From Anaerolineae bacterium (GTDB lineage: Bacteria > Chloroflexota > Anaerolineae > Aggregatilineales > Phototrophicaceae), in NCBI GenBank assembly GCA_028284565.1, contig JANQRM010000626.1, positions 1 to 8,025 on the forward strand: 8,025 nt of DNA. Reading direction: 5' to 3'. Under the pieces are notes generated by a model. That model was not told where the DNA came from. It was given only the letters and a program-made list of their open reading frames with translations, and made no database searches. A program made the position numbers and the translations under genes. Numbering within the stretch: position 1 is the first letter of the stretch; the number at the start of each line of letters is the position of its first letter. This document shows positions 2,840 to 5,774 of the stretch, in pieces.

Positions 2840-3312
2840 TCGGGCAAGGCGCGTATCTTAGCGATTAACTGTGTGGTACTGTGATTGGGCAAGTAATCAA
2901 TCAACTCGACCCGCCCACCATAGGCTTCAACTGTGGGACGCTCTGGTAGAGGTTTATGGGCATAATCCCCACCTTTGACATAAATATCCGGCTTCAATGC
3001 TTTCAGAAGCGCATCCGCGGTGTCACCTTCAAAAATCACGACAGCTGTCACCGGAATCCATGCCGAGAGCAAGCGCGCCCGTTCAATGGCTGGCACAATC
3101 GGGCGACCTATTCCTTTGAGGCGCGCCGTACTATCATCCCCATTCAAACCCAATATTAGGGCATCGCCTAATGCCCTTGCCTTTTCCAGATAATCCAAAT
3201 GCCCGACATGCAAGAGGTCAAAATGCCCATTTGTCAACACCACTGTTTTTTCTTCTCGACGAAATCGCTCTCGCAGAGCTATGGCTTCATTAAGTGAAAG
3301 ATGTCGTCCCAT
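2836..3312 (-). CDS. rfaE2: D-glycero-beta-D-manno-heptose 1-phosphate adenylyltransferase (stand-alone RfaE domain II)
   Basis: This 158-residue cytidylyltransferase-fold enzyme transfers AMP from ATP to heptose 1-phosphate, giving ADP-heptose for surface glycans. The nucleotidyltransferase signature is intact: TNGHFDLLHVGH at residues 27-38, with the HxGH motif at 35-38. Further family marks are GLNGDDSTARLKG (about 55-67), GRPIVP (69-74), DIYVKGGDY (about 109-117), VEAYGGRVELID (128-139) and STTQLI (145-150). In E. coli this domain is fused to a kinase in HldE; here it stands alone, as is common outside Enterobacteria, and no kinase (rfaE1/hldA) is in view. AGGAG at 3318-3322 lies 5 bases before the ATG. 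It lies 28 bases downstream of the nuclease gene on the same strand with no terminator between, so it is probably co-transcribed with it. Its stop overlaps the convergent propeller gene by 4 bases. Confidence 0.93.
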   Translation of the reverse strand: MGRHLSLNEAIALRERFRREEKTVVLTNGHFDLLHVGHLDYLEKARALGDALILGLNGDDSTARLKGIGRPIVPAIERARLLSAWIPVTAVVIFEGDTADALLKALKPDIYVKGGDYAHKPLPERPTVEAYGGRVELIDYLPNHSTTQLIAKIRALPD

Positions 3313-3317
3313 AAAAA

Positions 3318-3322
3318 CTCCT
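3318..3322 (-). promoter_or_regulatory. Ribosome binding site of rfaE2
   Basis: AGGAG on the minus strand, 5 bases from the ATG at 3312. It is noted because it partly lies inside one copy of the 11-bp direct repeat that brackets the nuclease gene. Confidence 0.75.
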
Positions 3323-3330
3323 AAATGTAA
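3320..3330. repeat. 11-bp direct repeat, copy 1 (rfaE2 side)
   Basis: CCTAAATGTAA here is identical to 5486-5496. With one-base gaps the similarity extends a few bases each way (CTC before, TACA after). This copy lies between the nuclease gene stop and rfaE2 and overlaps the rfaE2 Shine-Dalgarno. It could be one half of a target-site duplication. Confidence 0.55.
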
Positions 3331-3340
3331 CTACAAAAAC

Positions 3341-5389
3341 TTAGTCATTTTCAGGAACAAGTACTTCCGATGGACGAACCGCTGTGCTTCTAATTTGCGA
3401 TTGAATTATCTCATCTGCATTGGCTGGATTTTCGGCTAATTCATCTCGTTGCGTTTTCAATTTTTCCAGTAGAAAATTATGGCGAAGTTCAAACTCAGTA
3501 AAAATCTCACTCCAAGTCTTTACATAAATACGAACTTGTTTCTCGTCAATTGAGTAGACTAAAGAACGTTCACCATGATTAATTGAATTTTTTATTTCGC
3601 CTTGAATAAAGCCAGAGGTATCGAAACGATTACCAATCAAATAAAATTTCCATGTCATGTTTTTTGCATTAAATTCTGGCTGTTCTCGAATTACCCTCAA
3701 ATATTTTTTGACCTGATGCAGTTCCTTTTCTCCAAGTCTCACCTTAGGATTCTTCAATTCAACCACAATATTACTTATTTCGTCTGTCTCTTTTAACAGC
3801 CGAACAGCAAATATATCCATTTCACGTTGTTTGTCTTTGTGGGTAATTTTTACTTCTCTATTCTCGCCGCGAAGATGGAATATATAGCGTCTTAAGGCTT
3901 CCTCAAATTTTGGCTCTGCTGCAGTTACTAGGTGGTATTCTTCACCAAATAACCAATAATGACTCTCTACCATTTTCTGTATATGATTTGGCTCAGTTAC
4001 ATATAAATCGGAACTAAATACTAGCTGTTTTAGTTCTTCGACAACCTTAAATCGGTCCTCAATTAATCTAATAGTTTTTATTATGTTTGATAATTTAGAG
4101 CGTTTAAGTAATTGGGCTAAATCAGCTAACTCAGAGGATTCTAAGTCCGTAATTTCCCGCAACACATCAAAGAGATGACTTCTCTCTGCTTCATCTAAAG
4201 CCAGATTCAATAAATGTATAAAGGTCTTCTTTTGTTCCAAATTTAGATTAGAAAATAATTTAGGTTCAACTTGATAAAGTTCCCTCACGATTTTTTCTAA
4301 TTCTTTATGTCTATATACATCCCACTCATTTTGTCCAAAATCTGGAAAAACTCCAGCTTCCTCATAATCTTGGATTAATTTATCAGTGAAACTTCTAAGG
4401 AATGGCTTTCTCTTTGCTCTAAGGAAATTATCTACAAATACTTTTAAACCCCTAAATATTTCATCTCTACGACTTAGTGTTGGCAACATTAACTGACCAT
4501 CATCACTGTGACTACTTCCGAAACCATAAATATGAATCATGTCGAAATAATCGCTTTTAATGTAAACACTGTGATAAAAACTATCACCTTTATTATTCAG
4601 TGTAGTTGTTTCCTTCTGGCGTTCTACATTATCAGACCCAATATAGTAATAATGAGAATATTCATTGGATAGACGTTCTACCCAACGGACATATTTGATA
4701 TCAAATTCAAATAACTGACCATCTTCATATTGTTCATATTGTGTTTCCTCTATATCACCTATTAAGTTTGAATAATCTATTGGTATTCGATTAATGAGTA
4801 ATGCAAATTCACGGGCAGAATTCAATTCCAGAAACCATGCAAATTCTTTAACTAGATATGGATATATTTCTGTTTCAAAGTGATATTTGCTCAAACCAAT
4901 GATTCCTGAAAACCTAACCATTGTTCCTAATGCTTCGTCAATTGGCTTTGGCTCAGTATTTGAAAATTCATTTAAAGTATCTATATCAATATTAATAGAG
5001 TAAATATAATTTATGTCTTCATTTACGGGAGTATAGATTGTCTTCCATTCAGCATAACGCGCAAAGTGAAAAAACGTGAGTCGCCCAACACCATTTTTCC
5101 CGTGAATAGCTGACACTTTCTTATTTACGATGTCTTGAAGTTCTTTTTCTGACTGGAAAAATGGTCTAAAAGTGCTATCTAGGTTTTCGTGAGGGATGCC
5201 AGATCCATTATCAATAATTCGTATTTCGGTTATACCATCCAGTTCATTTAAATCCAATTGAATTTCAACTTCTGTTGCGCCAGCATCAAATCCATTCCAA
5301 ATATATTCTGAAATAGCTTGCTTTGCGTCATATCTTTTTAATGCTTTTTTTGTTCCCTCAACTGTTATCCGAATCGGTTGCTGTACCAT
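3341..5389 (-). CDS. GHKL ATPase fused to a Shedu-like PD-(D/E)XK nuclease (probable defence protein)
   Basis: This 682-residue protein has two recognisable ends. Residues about 5-165 form a GHKL (Bergerat-fold) ATPase: N-box ExxxNxxDAGA with E28, N32 and D35; IIDNGSGI with D60, G62 and G64; HGKNGVGRLTF at 96-106; and GTMVRFSG at 155-162. Residues about 170-330 probably form an S5-like transducer; about 335-460 look helical. The C-terminal part begins with YWLFGEEYHLVT (478-489) and carries a PD-(D/E)XK core: MDIF with D525, then VVELKNPK with E544 and K546, then QVKKY (559-563). This pattern matches the DUF4263/Shedu (SduA) nuclease type. Known precedents are Shedu anti-phage nucleases with varied N-termini, and prokaryotic MutL/MORC-like ATPases in restriction contexts (Iyer, Abhiman and Aravind). 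I infer an ATP-gated DNA nuclease that acts in phage or plasmid defence. No methyltransferase, helicase or toxin partner is visible. GGGAAG lies about 8 bases before the ATG. Base composition is more A+T-rich than all neighbours (for example 14 G+C of 60 at 4201-4260, against 28 of 60 at 6001-6060), which suggests transfer. Domain calls are strong; the biological role is inferred. Confidence 0.88.
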   Translation of the reverse strand: MVQQPIRITVEGTKKALKRYDAKQAISEYIWNGFDAGATEVEIQLDLNELDGITEIRIIDNGSGIPHENLDSTFRPFFQSEKELQDIVNKKVSAIHGKNGVGRLTFFHFARYAEWKTIYTPVNEDINYIYSINIDIDTLNEFSNTEPKPIDEALGTMVRFSGIIGLSKYHFETEIYPYLVKEFAWFLELNSAREFALLINRIPIDYSNLIGDIEETQYEQYEDGQLFEFDIKYVRWVERLSNEYSHYYYIGSDNVERQKETTTLNNKGDSFYHSVYIKSDYFDMIHIYGFGSSHSDDGQLMLPTLSRRDEIFRGLKVFVDNFLRAKRKPFLRSFTDKLIQDYEEAGVFPDFGQNEWDVYRHKELEKIVRELYQVEPKLFSNLNLEQKKTFIHLLNLALDEAERSHLFDVLREITDLESSELADLAQLLKRSKLSNIIKTIRLIEDRFKVVEELKQLVFSSDLYVTEPNHIQKMVESHYWLFGEEYHLVTAAEPKFEEALRRYIFHLRGENREVKITHKDKQREMDIFAVRLLKETDEISNIVVELKNPKVRLGEKELHQVKKYLRVIREQPEFNAKNMTWKFYLIGNRFDTSGFIQGEIKNSINHGERSLVYSIDEKQVRIYVKTWSEIFTEFELRHNFLLEKLKTQRDELAENPANADEIIQSQIRSTAVRPSEVLVPEND

Positions 5390-5418
5390 GCGTTTAGCTT
5401 CCCTGACTAATTTACCTT

Positions 5419-5447
5419 ATTATATTACTAAGTAGAATTCATGTCAG
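5419..5447 (-). promoter_or_regulatory. Near-consensus sigma-70-type promoter of the ATPase-nuclease gene
   Basis: On the minus strand, CTGACA (5442-5447) is followed by a 17-base spacer and a perfect TATAAT (5419-5424). The predicted start site is near 5412, which leaves a leader of about 23 bases containing the GGGAAG ribosome binding site before the ATG at 5389. Eleven of twelve hexamer bases match the consensus. The gene therefore brings its own promoter, which may also drive rfaE2. Confidence 0.72.
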
Positions 5448-5485
5448 TTACAAATTAAATGAAGTAAAATCCAAAATATTATCTC

Positions 5486-5496
5486 CCTAAATGTAA
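5486..5496. repeat. 11-bp direct repeat, copy 2 (upstream of the nuclease gene)
   Basis: CCTAAATGTAA is identical to 3320-3330 and in the same orientation. Read on the minus strand it gives TTACATTTAGG followed by GAG, an orphan Shine-Dalgarno-like sequence with no start codon in reach. That is what would remain if the ancestral rfaE2 leader had been split by insertion of the nuclease gene. Confidence 0.55.
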
Positions 5497-5536
5497 GATA
5501 CATAATAGAGAAAACATCCATAAACATAAGCATCTG

Positions 5537-5554
5537 TTGACAAACAATTGACAA
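5537..5554 (+). repeat. Tandem TTGACAA pair, 11-bp period
   Basis: TTGACAA occurs at 5537-5543 and 5548-5554, start to start 11 bp, about one helical turn. The second copy doubles as the -35 of a promoter candidate. It could be a two-site operator or chance; a related TGACAA occurs at 5669-5674. Confidence 0.35.
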
Positions 5555-5576
5555 GTCGGTGGAAGCTGTTTAGAGT
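5548..5576 (+). promoter_or_regulatory. Candidate distal promoter for the cysteine synthase gene
   Basis: Perfect TTGACA (5548-5553), 17-base spacer, then TAGAGT (5571-5576; 4 of 6 matches). A start near 5583 would give a leader of about 220 bases that contains all the inverted repeats ahead of the coding region. Confidence 0.4.
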
Positions 5577-5594
5577 GGTAGTTACAAATATTCA

Positions 5595-5610
5595 CATGGA
5601 GCTTTCCATG
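5595..5610. repeat. Small hairpin CATGGA-GCTT-TCCATG
   Basis: A perfect 6-bp stem with a 4-base loop. No T-run follows on either strand, so it is not a terminator. Confidence 0.4.
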
Positions 5611-5623
5611 CATCATTTCTGTT

Positions 5624-5667
5624 GTTGTTGTCTCAAGTTGATGTGTGACATGACTTAAGACAACAAC
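5624..5667. repeat. Long inverted repeat with 15-bp arms
   Basis: Left arm GTTGTTGTCTCAAGT (5624-5638) and right arm ACTTAAGACAACAAC (5653-5667) match at 14 of 15 positions; the odd pair would be G-U in a minus-strand RNA. Inside, ATGT (5641-5644) and ACAT (5648-5651) can pair around GTG, which gives a stem of about 19 bp with a small internal loop. Neither strand shows a T-run after it, so a terminator is unlikely. It may be an operator, an RNA leader element or a remnant of a small mobile element. Confidence 0.6.
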
Positions 5668-5684
5668 CTGACAATTTCGACATC

Positions 5685-5696
5685 TCGACAGGTCGA
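5685..5696. repeat. Short dyad TCGAC-AG-GTCGA
   Basis: Perfect 5-bp arms separated by 2 bases. The spacing suits a dimeric protein-binding site better than an RNA hairpin. No regulator can be named. Confidence 0.3.
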
Positions 5697-5717
5697 TGGC
5701 AATGTCTGAGCGTGACA

Positions 5718-5737
5718 CACATTCCTAAACGGATGTG
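5718..5737. repeat. Hairpin with one bulge upstream of the cysteine synthase gene
   Basis: CACATTCC (5718-5725) pairs with GGATGTG (5731-5737) around TAAAC, a 7-bp stem with one bulged T. It lies 64 bases before the chosen start codon. Confidence 0.3.
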
Positions 5738-5744
5738 AACACCG

Positions 5745-5774
5745 CTTGATGTTCCATTGACCTGTTTTTATTTT
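5745..5774 (+). promoter_or_regulatory. Candidate proximal promoter for the cysteine synthase gene
   Basis: TTGATG (5745-5750), 18-base spacer, TATTTT (5769-5774); 4 of 6 matches in each hexamer. The predicted start near 5781 is about 20 bases before the ATG at 5802, a normal leader length. If used, the in-frame TTG at 5757 would lie inside the promoter and could not be the start. Confidence 0.33.

Follow-up and report, generated by a model that had tools for sequence, protein, structure and literature searches.

A GHKL ATPase joined to a PD-(D/E)XK nuclease in an Anaerolineae contig: a paraMORC3 protein and probable single-gene anti-phage nuclease

What is the role of a protein that joins a GHKL-type ATPase to a nuclease in a single chain? 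The gene that raises this question lies on the minus strand of an 8,025-nucleotide stretch of an Anaerolineae bacterium (assembly GCA_028284565.1, contig JANQRM010000626.1), which we call the window. Its open frame (3341-5389, with an ATG start at 5389) has 682 codons; the plus-strand translation of the same interval is riddled with stops. By analogy with VcSduA, a GHKL-Shedu protein of Vibrio cholerae, we consider it probable (roughly 0.7) that the window copy is a horizontally acquired single-gene anti-phage nuclease that has the paraMORC3 architecture and works like VcSduA. The gene and its domains are as follows.

3341-5389, minus strand: gene for a GHKL ATPase/PD-(D/E)XK nuclease of paraMORC3 architecture, recognized from its open frame, full-length homologs and alignments
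4895-5389, minus strand: GHKL (Bergerat) ATP-binding domain, residues 1-165, recognized from Pfam HATPase_c_3, conservation and fold; the border is model-read and approximate
4391-4894, minus strand: S5-like transducer/middle domain, residues 166-333, recognized from structural matches to TRAP1 and MORC; the border is approximate
4025-4390, minus strand: helical linker between ATPase and nuclease, residues 334-455, from model secondary structure of low to moderate confidence
3455-4024, minus strand: PD-(D/E)XK nuclease domain, residues 456-645, with invariant E466, E483, D525, E544-x-K546 and Q559

A reading made from the sequence only had placed a Bergerat ATP site at E28 (codon 5306-5308), N32, D35, D60-G62-G64 and residues 97-103 (G97-R103), and these positions proved correct and conserved. 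Pfam HATPase_c_3 matched residues 21-135 with an E value of 3.7e-16 and HATPase_c matched with an E value of 7.7e-8, both above their curated cut-offs; according to the Pfam matches and alignments, GHKL ATP-binding motifs I to IV are intact. The ATP lid (residues 78-99) was modeled at a predicted local distance difference test score (pLDDT) below 50. TRAP1, MORC2 and MORC3 aligned with model residues 1-333, indicating that an S5 domain follows the GHKL domain. The model thus matches known GHKL-S5 structures over this half.

The C-terminal domain model folds as PD-(D/E)XK, with Shedu, N.BspD6I, FokI and EndoMS in the top ranks among solved structures. The catalytic core that the sequence-only reading had proposed (D525, E544-L-K546 and Q559) was likewise correct; it is conserved and sits in a fold that structural ranking identifies as PD-(D/E)XK. 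The E-D-ExK residues (E466, E483, D525 and E544-x-K546) are invariant on this restriction endonuclease (RE) fold. Model folds and motifs together support the view that a single chain combines a GHKL-S5 ATPase with a PD-(D/E)XK nuclease.

The residues of both sites are conserved across the family. In a 25-row alignment N32, D35, D60, G62, G64, G97, G102, R103, D525, E544, K546 and Q559 are invariant; E28, K98, N99, G100 and L545 are nearly so, and V101 alternates with Ile. A 74-row alignment, composed of the window protein and 73 of 83 viral and genome loci (frames below 600 codons and some further loci were left out), reaches down to 36% identity to the window protein. The same 12 residues and G100 are invariant in it, and E28 is nearly invariant. 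A protein search scored 7993 candidates, of which 1491 reached E ≤ 1e-3; apart from the protein itself, the best match is 68% identical over the full length, and the closest named relatives are from Anaerolineae. The open frame, the 1491 homologs and the full-length match rule out a chance frame or pseudogene. The whole architecture recurs in two other subfamilies, whose compared members are about 23-27% and 29-31% identical to the window protein; profile comparison gave a probability of 100 over 611 and 632 columns.

Proteins built in this way have been described before. In the sections of their 2008 paper available to us, Iyer, Abhiman and Aravind defined paraMORC3 as GHKL and S5 followed by a C-terminal RE fold with E-D-ExK, and described its members as sporadic and laterally mobile, some standalone with a possible function of their own and others near restriction-modification (R-M) genes (PMC2292703). 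The window protein shares the N-terminal GHKL and S5 domains and the C-terminal RE fold with E-D-ExK, and it is a paraMORC3 member, assigned by the description and not by that paper's sequences. Those sections stress Proteobacteria and Bacteroidetes, whereas the window's branch is made up of Chloroflexota and Cyanobacteriota.

A functional precedent is VcSduA, a GHKL-DUF4263 protein classed as “Shedu type I-D” by Adams, Blokesch and colleagues in 2025. According to the parts of that study available to us, it protects Escherichia coli against Drexlerviridae and V. cholerae against phage X29 where ddmABC is deleted, and E27A (GHKL) and K557A (nuclease) each abolish phage defense, as tested in E. 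coli (PMC12137116). From a modeled dimer with a clamp-like middle domain, its authors proposed that the ATPase controls the nuclease, and they noted that proteins of this organization had been annotated as paraMORC3 (PMC12137116). VcSduA, like the window protein, is the product of a single gene with GHKL followed by PD-(D/E)XK; Glu27 and Lys557 are counterparts in kind of E28 and K546, with an E-to-K spacing of 530 versus 518 in the window protein. The sequence-only reading had envisaged a single-gene defense system in which the ATPase licenses the nuclease. This idea gains a published precedent in VcSduA, but it is not new, since paraMORC3 (PMC2292703) and VcSduA (PMC12137116) had already placed it close to published work. 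A DUF4263 protein, PD-T4-8, is mentioned in PMC9519451; in the available parts of PMC9519451 and PMC13092281 we found no mention of a GHKL-nuclease protein. Our search of the literature, mostly open-access, found no tested member of the Chloroflexota/Cyanobacteriota branch.

The distribution of the family is patchy, and the gene is rare within a class. Of 396 genomes drawn from the class of genome G001, two match at E ≤ 1e-30, one being G001 itself and the other matching only in part; in the order of genome G004, 18 of 394 match at E ≤ 1e-6, G004 included, with some matches partial. A scan of species genomes yielded 285 relatives, and the best 80 of these, kept as loci, span Bacteroidota, Bacillota, Chloroflexota, Cyanobacteriota, Pseudomonadota, candidate phyla and archaea. 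Plasmid matches came from 46 records. Family members also occur on three viral contigs (L001-L003), whose 27 scanned neighbors include integrases, repressors and Psu-like polarity-suppression proteins. Psu-like proteins are tied to P4, and these neighbors, counted over the three contigs together, suggest that the carriers are P4-like satellites or prophages. The guanine-plus-cytosine (GC) content is 0.31-0.36 across the stretch of the nuclease gene versus 0.43-0.54 in its flanks, and the window copy was probably acquired laterally. No clear boundary repeat or insertion repeat was found around the low-GC islet, and a tRNA search of the window found none. In an empty-site search the adjoining cytidylyltransferase-like gene was matched in 13 of 59 relatives of genome G003; in five of those 13 regions no other window neighbor was present, so that an insertion is not demonstrable in this way.

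The most likely function of the protein is ATP-gated cleavage of invading DNA. We infer phage defense by the window copy, and with it a dimer clamp, gating by ATP, DNA as the substrate and a trigger. The protein would dimerize through its GHKL-S5 half, and on binding ATP its paired N-domains would clamp shut around DNA. Closure, perhaps on a DNA state specific to infection, would bring the C-terminal PD-(D/E)XK domains of both subunits into contact with the DNA and license cutting; ATP hydrolysis would then reset the protein.

Several observations weigh against a VcSduA-like anti-phage nuclease. Its kinship with VcSduA is one of described architecture. VcSduA is described as a DUF4263 protein, whereas the window protein gave no match to DUF4263 (Pfam SduA_C) at E ≤ 1. 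At E ≤ 0.01, HATPase_c_3 matched 74 of the 74 aligned rows, HSDR_N_2 matched 49 and SduA_C matched one (best E value, 7.4e-4). Shedu was the top structural match by VIA-align only, in a tie with N.BspD6I (9.6), which lay within 1 Z unit. Plain Foldseek with the nuclease domain alone gave no match at E ≤ 0.001 (best E value, 6e-3, to MspJI), and Shedu was absent among the best 50 matches that it listed. No defense or R-M gene, methyltransferase included, was found among the six other window genes scanned. On a tree that omits three loci with frames below 450 codons (L059, L068 and L082), the window groups with two Chloroflexota loci (99% by the Shimodaira-Hasegawa-like approximate likelihood ratio test, SH-aLRT); because its branch groups by phylum, the window copy may have been in its lineage for longer than its GC content suggests. 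The association of relatives with R-M genes is also modest. At least one of six R-M families occurred within 3 kb in 21 of the 80 loci and at 7-10 kb in 5, a distance to which some of the 80 loci do not extend. Counted per gene, R-M genes made up 32/463 near and 6/232 far (Fisher p = 0.02), with seeds picked from clusters of near genes, which favors the near class; one seed per family (two for HsdR) was confirmed by Pfam. The numbers of loci, near and far, were 12 and 0 for HsdR, 6 and 1 for HsdS, 3 and 0 for Mod, 4 and 0 for Res, and 3 and 1 for C5-methylase; HsdM, with 3 and 3, showed no enrichment.

Other comparisons bear on whether the nuclease should be called Shedu. The best Pfam result on the C terminus was a sub-threshold match to HSDR_N_2 (E = 3.6e-4, 21 versus 25 bits), a nuclease-domain profile found no match among PDB sequences at E ≤ 10, and a further check of SduA_C gave 2 weak matches in 10 (17.6 and 19.5 bits versus a cut-off of 27). 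No protein with the E27 and K557 motif pattern occurred among the 360 proteins listed, the loci fetched or the 394-genome scan. The nuclease folds of SduA from Bacillus cereus and E. coli (8ti8, 8ti9, 8ps4 and 8ps5) match that of the window protein, in the tied top rank, but with 14-17% identity and without the Shedu sequence signature being reached. To our knowledge, the N-terminal part of these SduA proteins differs and has no GHKL domain. The proposal of a Shedu-like nuclease is in line with the top-ranking, tied structure match and fails for the DUF4263 signature at the Pfam cut-off. Because that signature was tested and fell below the cut-off, and because kinship with VcSduA is by description only, we did not file the protein as Shedu by signature.

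The R-M genes near some relatives raise a different explanation, namely, that the protein is an accessory or guard subunit of R-M systems that evolved inside type I and type III operons. It would act on DNA that the R-M enzyme translocates or loops, or step in when a phage blocks that enzyme, in the way that the anticodon nuclease PrrC stands guard over a type I R-M enzyme. On this view the window copy would have split off to stand alone, or would cooperate with an R-M system encoded elsewhere. Four loci from Ignavibacteria and Bacteroidota (L017, L018, L022, which is from an environmental Flavobacterium, and L028) have the order hsdR-[gene]-hsdS, with hsdR ending 0-5 bases before the gene start and hsdS overlapping the gene end, starts and overlaps being approximate since gene calls are longest open frames. 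Elsewhere hsdR ends 22 (L042) or 30 (L059) bases upstream of the family gene, and the orders mod-[gene]-...-res (L057) and res-mod-[gene] (L070) occur. R-M roles for paraMORCs were also proposed in the available sections of the 2008 paper (PMC2292703). The strict operonic label, placed for seven of the eight operonic loci (L059 is too short), needs 5 changes on the tree and the restriction label needs 16, so the R-M association comes and goes. We nevertheless regard a guard subunit as unlikely. VcSduA, as far as the available text describes it, protects E. coli MG1655 in the absence of its V. cholerae neighbors (PMC12137116). The window has no R-M gene, in 59 of the 80 loci no member of the six R-M seed families lies within 3 kb, and L015, L021 and L031, close sisters of the operonic L022, were not flagged for R-M. 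MG1655, however, carries a type I system of its own, EcoKI, which tempers the argument from VcSduA. The sequence-only reading had described the gene as having no visible partners, which is accurate for the 8 kb of the window but not for the 21 relatives with R-M genes nearby, some of them operonic; a survey of homologs for defense-island neighbors, which it had proposed, finds defense genes near part of the loci.

Two further explanations are far less probable than a guard subunit. One is a type II enzyme like HgiDII and BbrUII, in which a GHKL-type N terminus is combined with a site-specific nuclease and which needs a cognate methyltransferase. It is suggested by a match to NCBIfam NF050001 (E = 8.9e-16, best stretch residues 26-162). 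The score was 57.5 bits versus a cut-off of 550, and the best stretch lies wholly within the ATPase (a second passing stretch is unplaced). No methyltransferase partner is present among the window genes and none is a constant neighbor of relatives, with HsdM, Mod and C5-methylase each found within 3 kb in 3 of 80 loci. We rejected this candidate, as its score lies far under the cut-off. It is equally improbable that the protein is a DNA repair factor, a relative of MutL with its own nuclease and a housekeeping role. The ATPase half is MutL-like and some public records bear the name “DNA mismatch repair protein”, yet TIGR00585 scored 32.2 bits versus a cut-off of 180, and the patchy distribution and AT-rich islet speak against housekeeping. 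The PD-(D/E)XK fold is also unlike the C-terminal endonuclease of MutL, as described in the sections available (PMC2292703). With profile scores far under cut-off, MutL-type mismatch repair was rejected, as was a histidine kinase, whose profile score was also far under its cut-off.

The reading of the window copy as a VcSduA-like anti-phage nuclease joins three lines: the 2008 suggestion that GHKL-nuclease proteins standing alone may have their own role, the 2025 demonstration of anti-phage activity for one protein of this architecture, and a branch in Chloroflexota and Cyanobacteriota. PADLOC, the defense catalog that we used, leaves this copy unflagged, with no match at E ≤ 1, and Pfam places only its ATPase above cut-off. 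If the window copy defends its host, a large family now mostly called “ATP-binding protein” or left nameless becomes annotatable. The placement of some relatives in R-M operons raises the testable question of whether the clamp responds to DNA handled by an R-M enzyme. More tentatively, the family could be a nuclease cassette, mobile and gated by ATP, that R-M operons of types I and III have captured time and again, exactly between hsdR and hsdS or between mod and res, and then released. In such operons it would act as a guard or as a second-strike nuclease, set off by engagement or inhibition of the host R-M complex, and solitary copies such as that of the window would sense a DNA state on their own with the same clamp; we hold this doubtful.

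Neighbors other than R-M genes recur beside the family. A Schlafen protein with AlbA_2 and HATPase_c_4 is near the family gene in 10 of 80 loci and far from it in none (L018, L025, L026, L040, L048, L061, L063, L067, L075 and L082; the L018 copy was confirmed by Pfam). In Clostridium gasigenes the gene directly after the relative (L055, 11995-12837) resembles AbiJ N-terminal domain 4 (E = 1e-6, below cut-off), and several other loci have genes of 270-280 residues at the equivalent place that do not cluster with it. A distant relative on a Psychrobacter plasmid (L086, 3723-9908) lies in a small defense cluster with Drt2 and an LlaMI-type R-M pair. Neighbors were also compared with PADLOC in sets of 73, 71 and 116 proteins, with 287, 307 and 85 families at E ≤ 1e-10, many models being redundant. 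The near sets were made by hand from 149 genes: six were omitted (the second genes of L024, L055, L057, L070, L072 and L074), the downstream genes of L017, L018, L022 and L028 were swapped for the overlapping hsdS, and Mod from L070 was included. The rows “Specificity_I, 4/71” very probably rest on those four swapped-in hsdS genes. In L059, L069, L079 and L082 the relative is split into two frames, and these are probably broken copies or assembly errors.

Of the six other window genes scanned, two encode Opp-type permeases, one of which is truncated by the end of the window. The remaining four encode an NHL-repeat protein, a cytidylyltransferase-like protein, a PALP-family enzyme that we read as CysM-like and a LysM/M23 protein. 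The cytidylyltransferase-like gene begins 28 bases downstream of the nuclease gene on the same strand (junction, 3312-3341), and the probably acquired nuclease gene may sit upstream of this resident gene with transcription running into it. Upstream, about 370 bases without a clear gene (5390-5756) separate the nuclease gene from the divergent PALP-family gene. They contain a candidate promoter:

5419-5447, minus strand: promoter-like site CTGACA-17-TATAAT, matching the consensus at 11 of 12 positions, 30 bases upstream of the ATG; a candidate only

The promoter scan found 7 sites, fewer than in shuffled sequences (mean, 10.2). The same upstream interval holds a 15-nucleotide inverted repeat (arms at 5624-5638 and 5653-5667, 93% complementary, with 14 nucleotides between them), and the hairpin at 5624-5667 may be a regulatory or mobile element.
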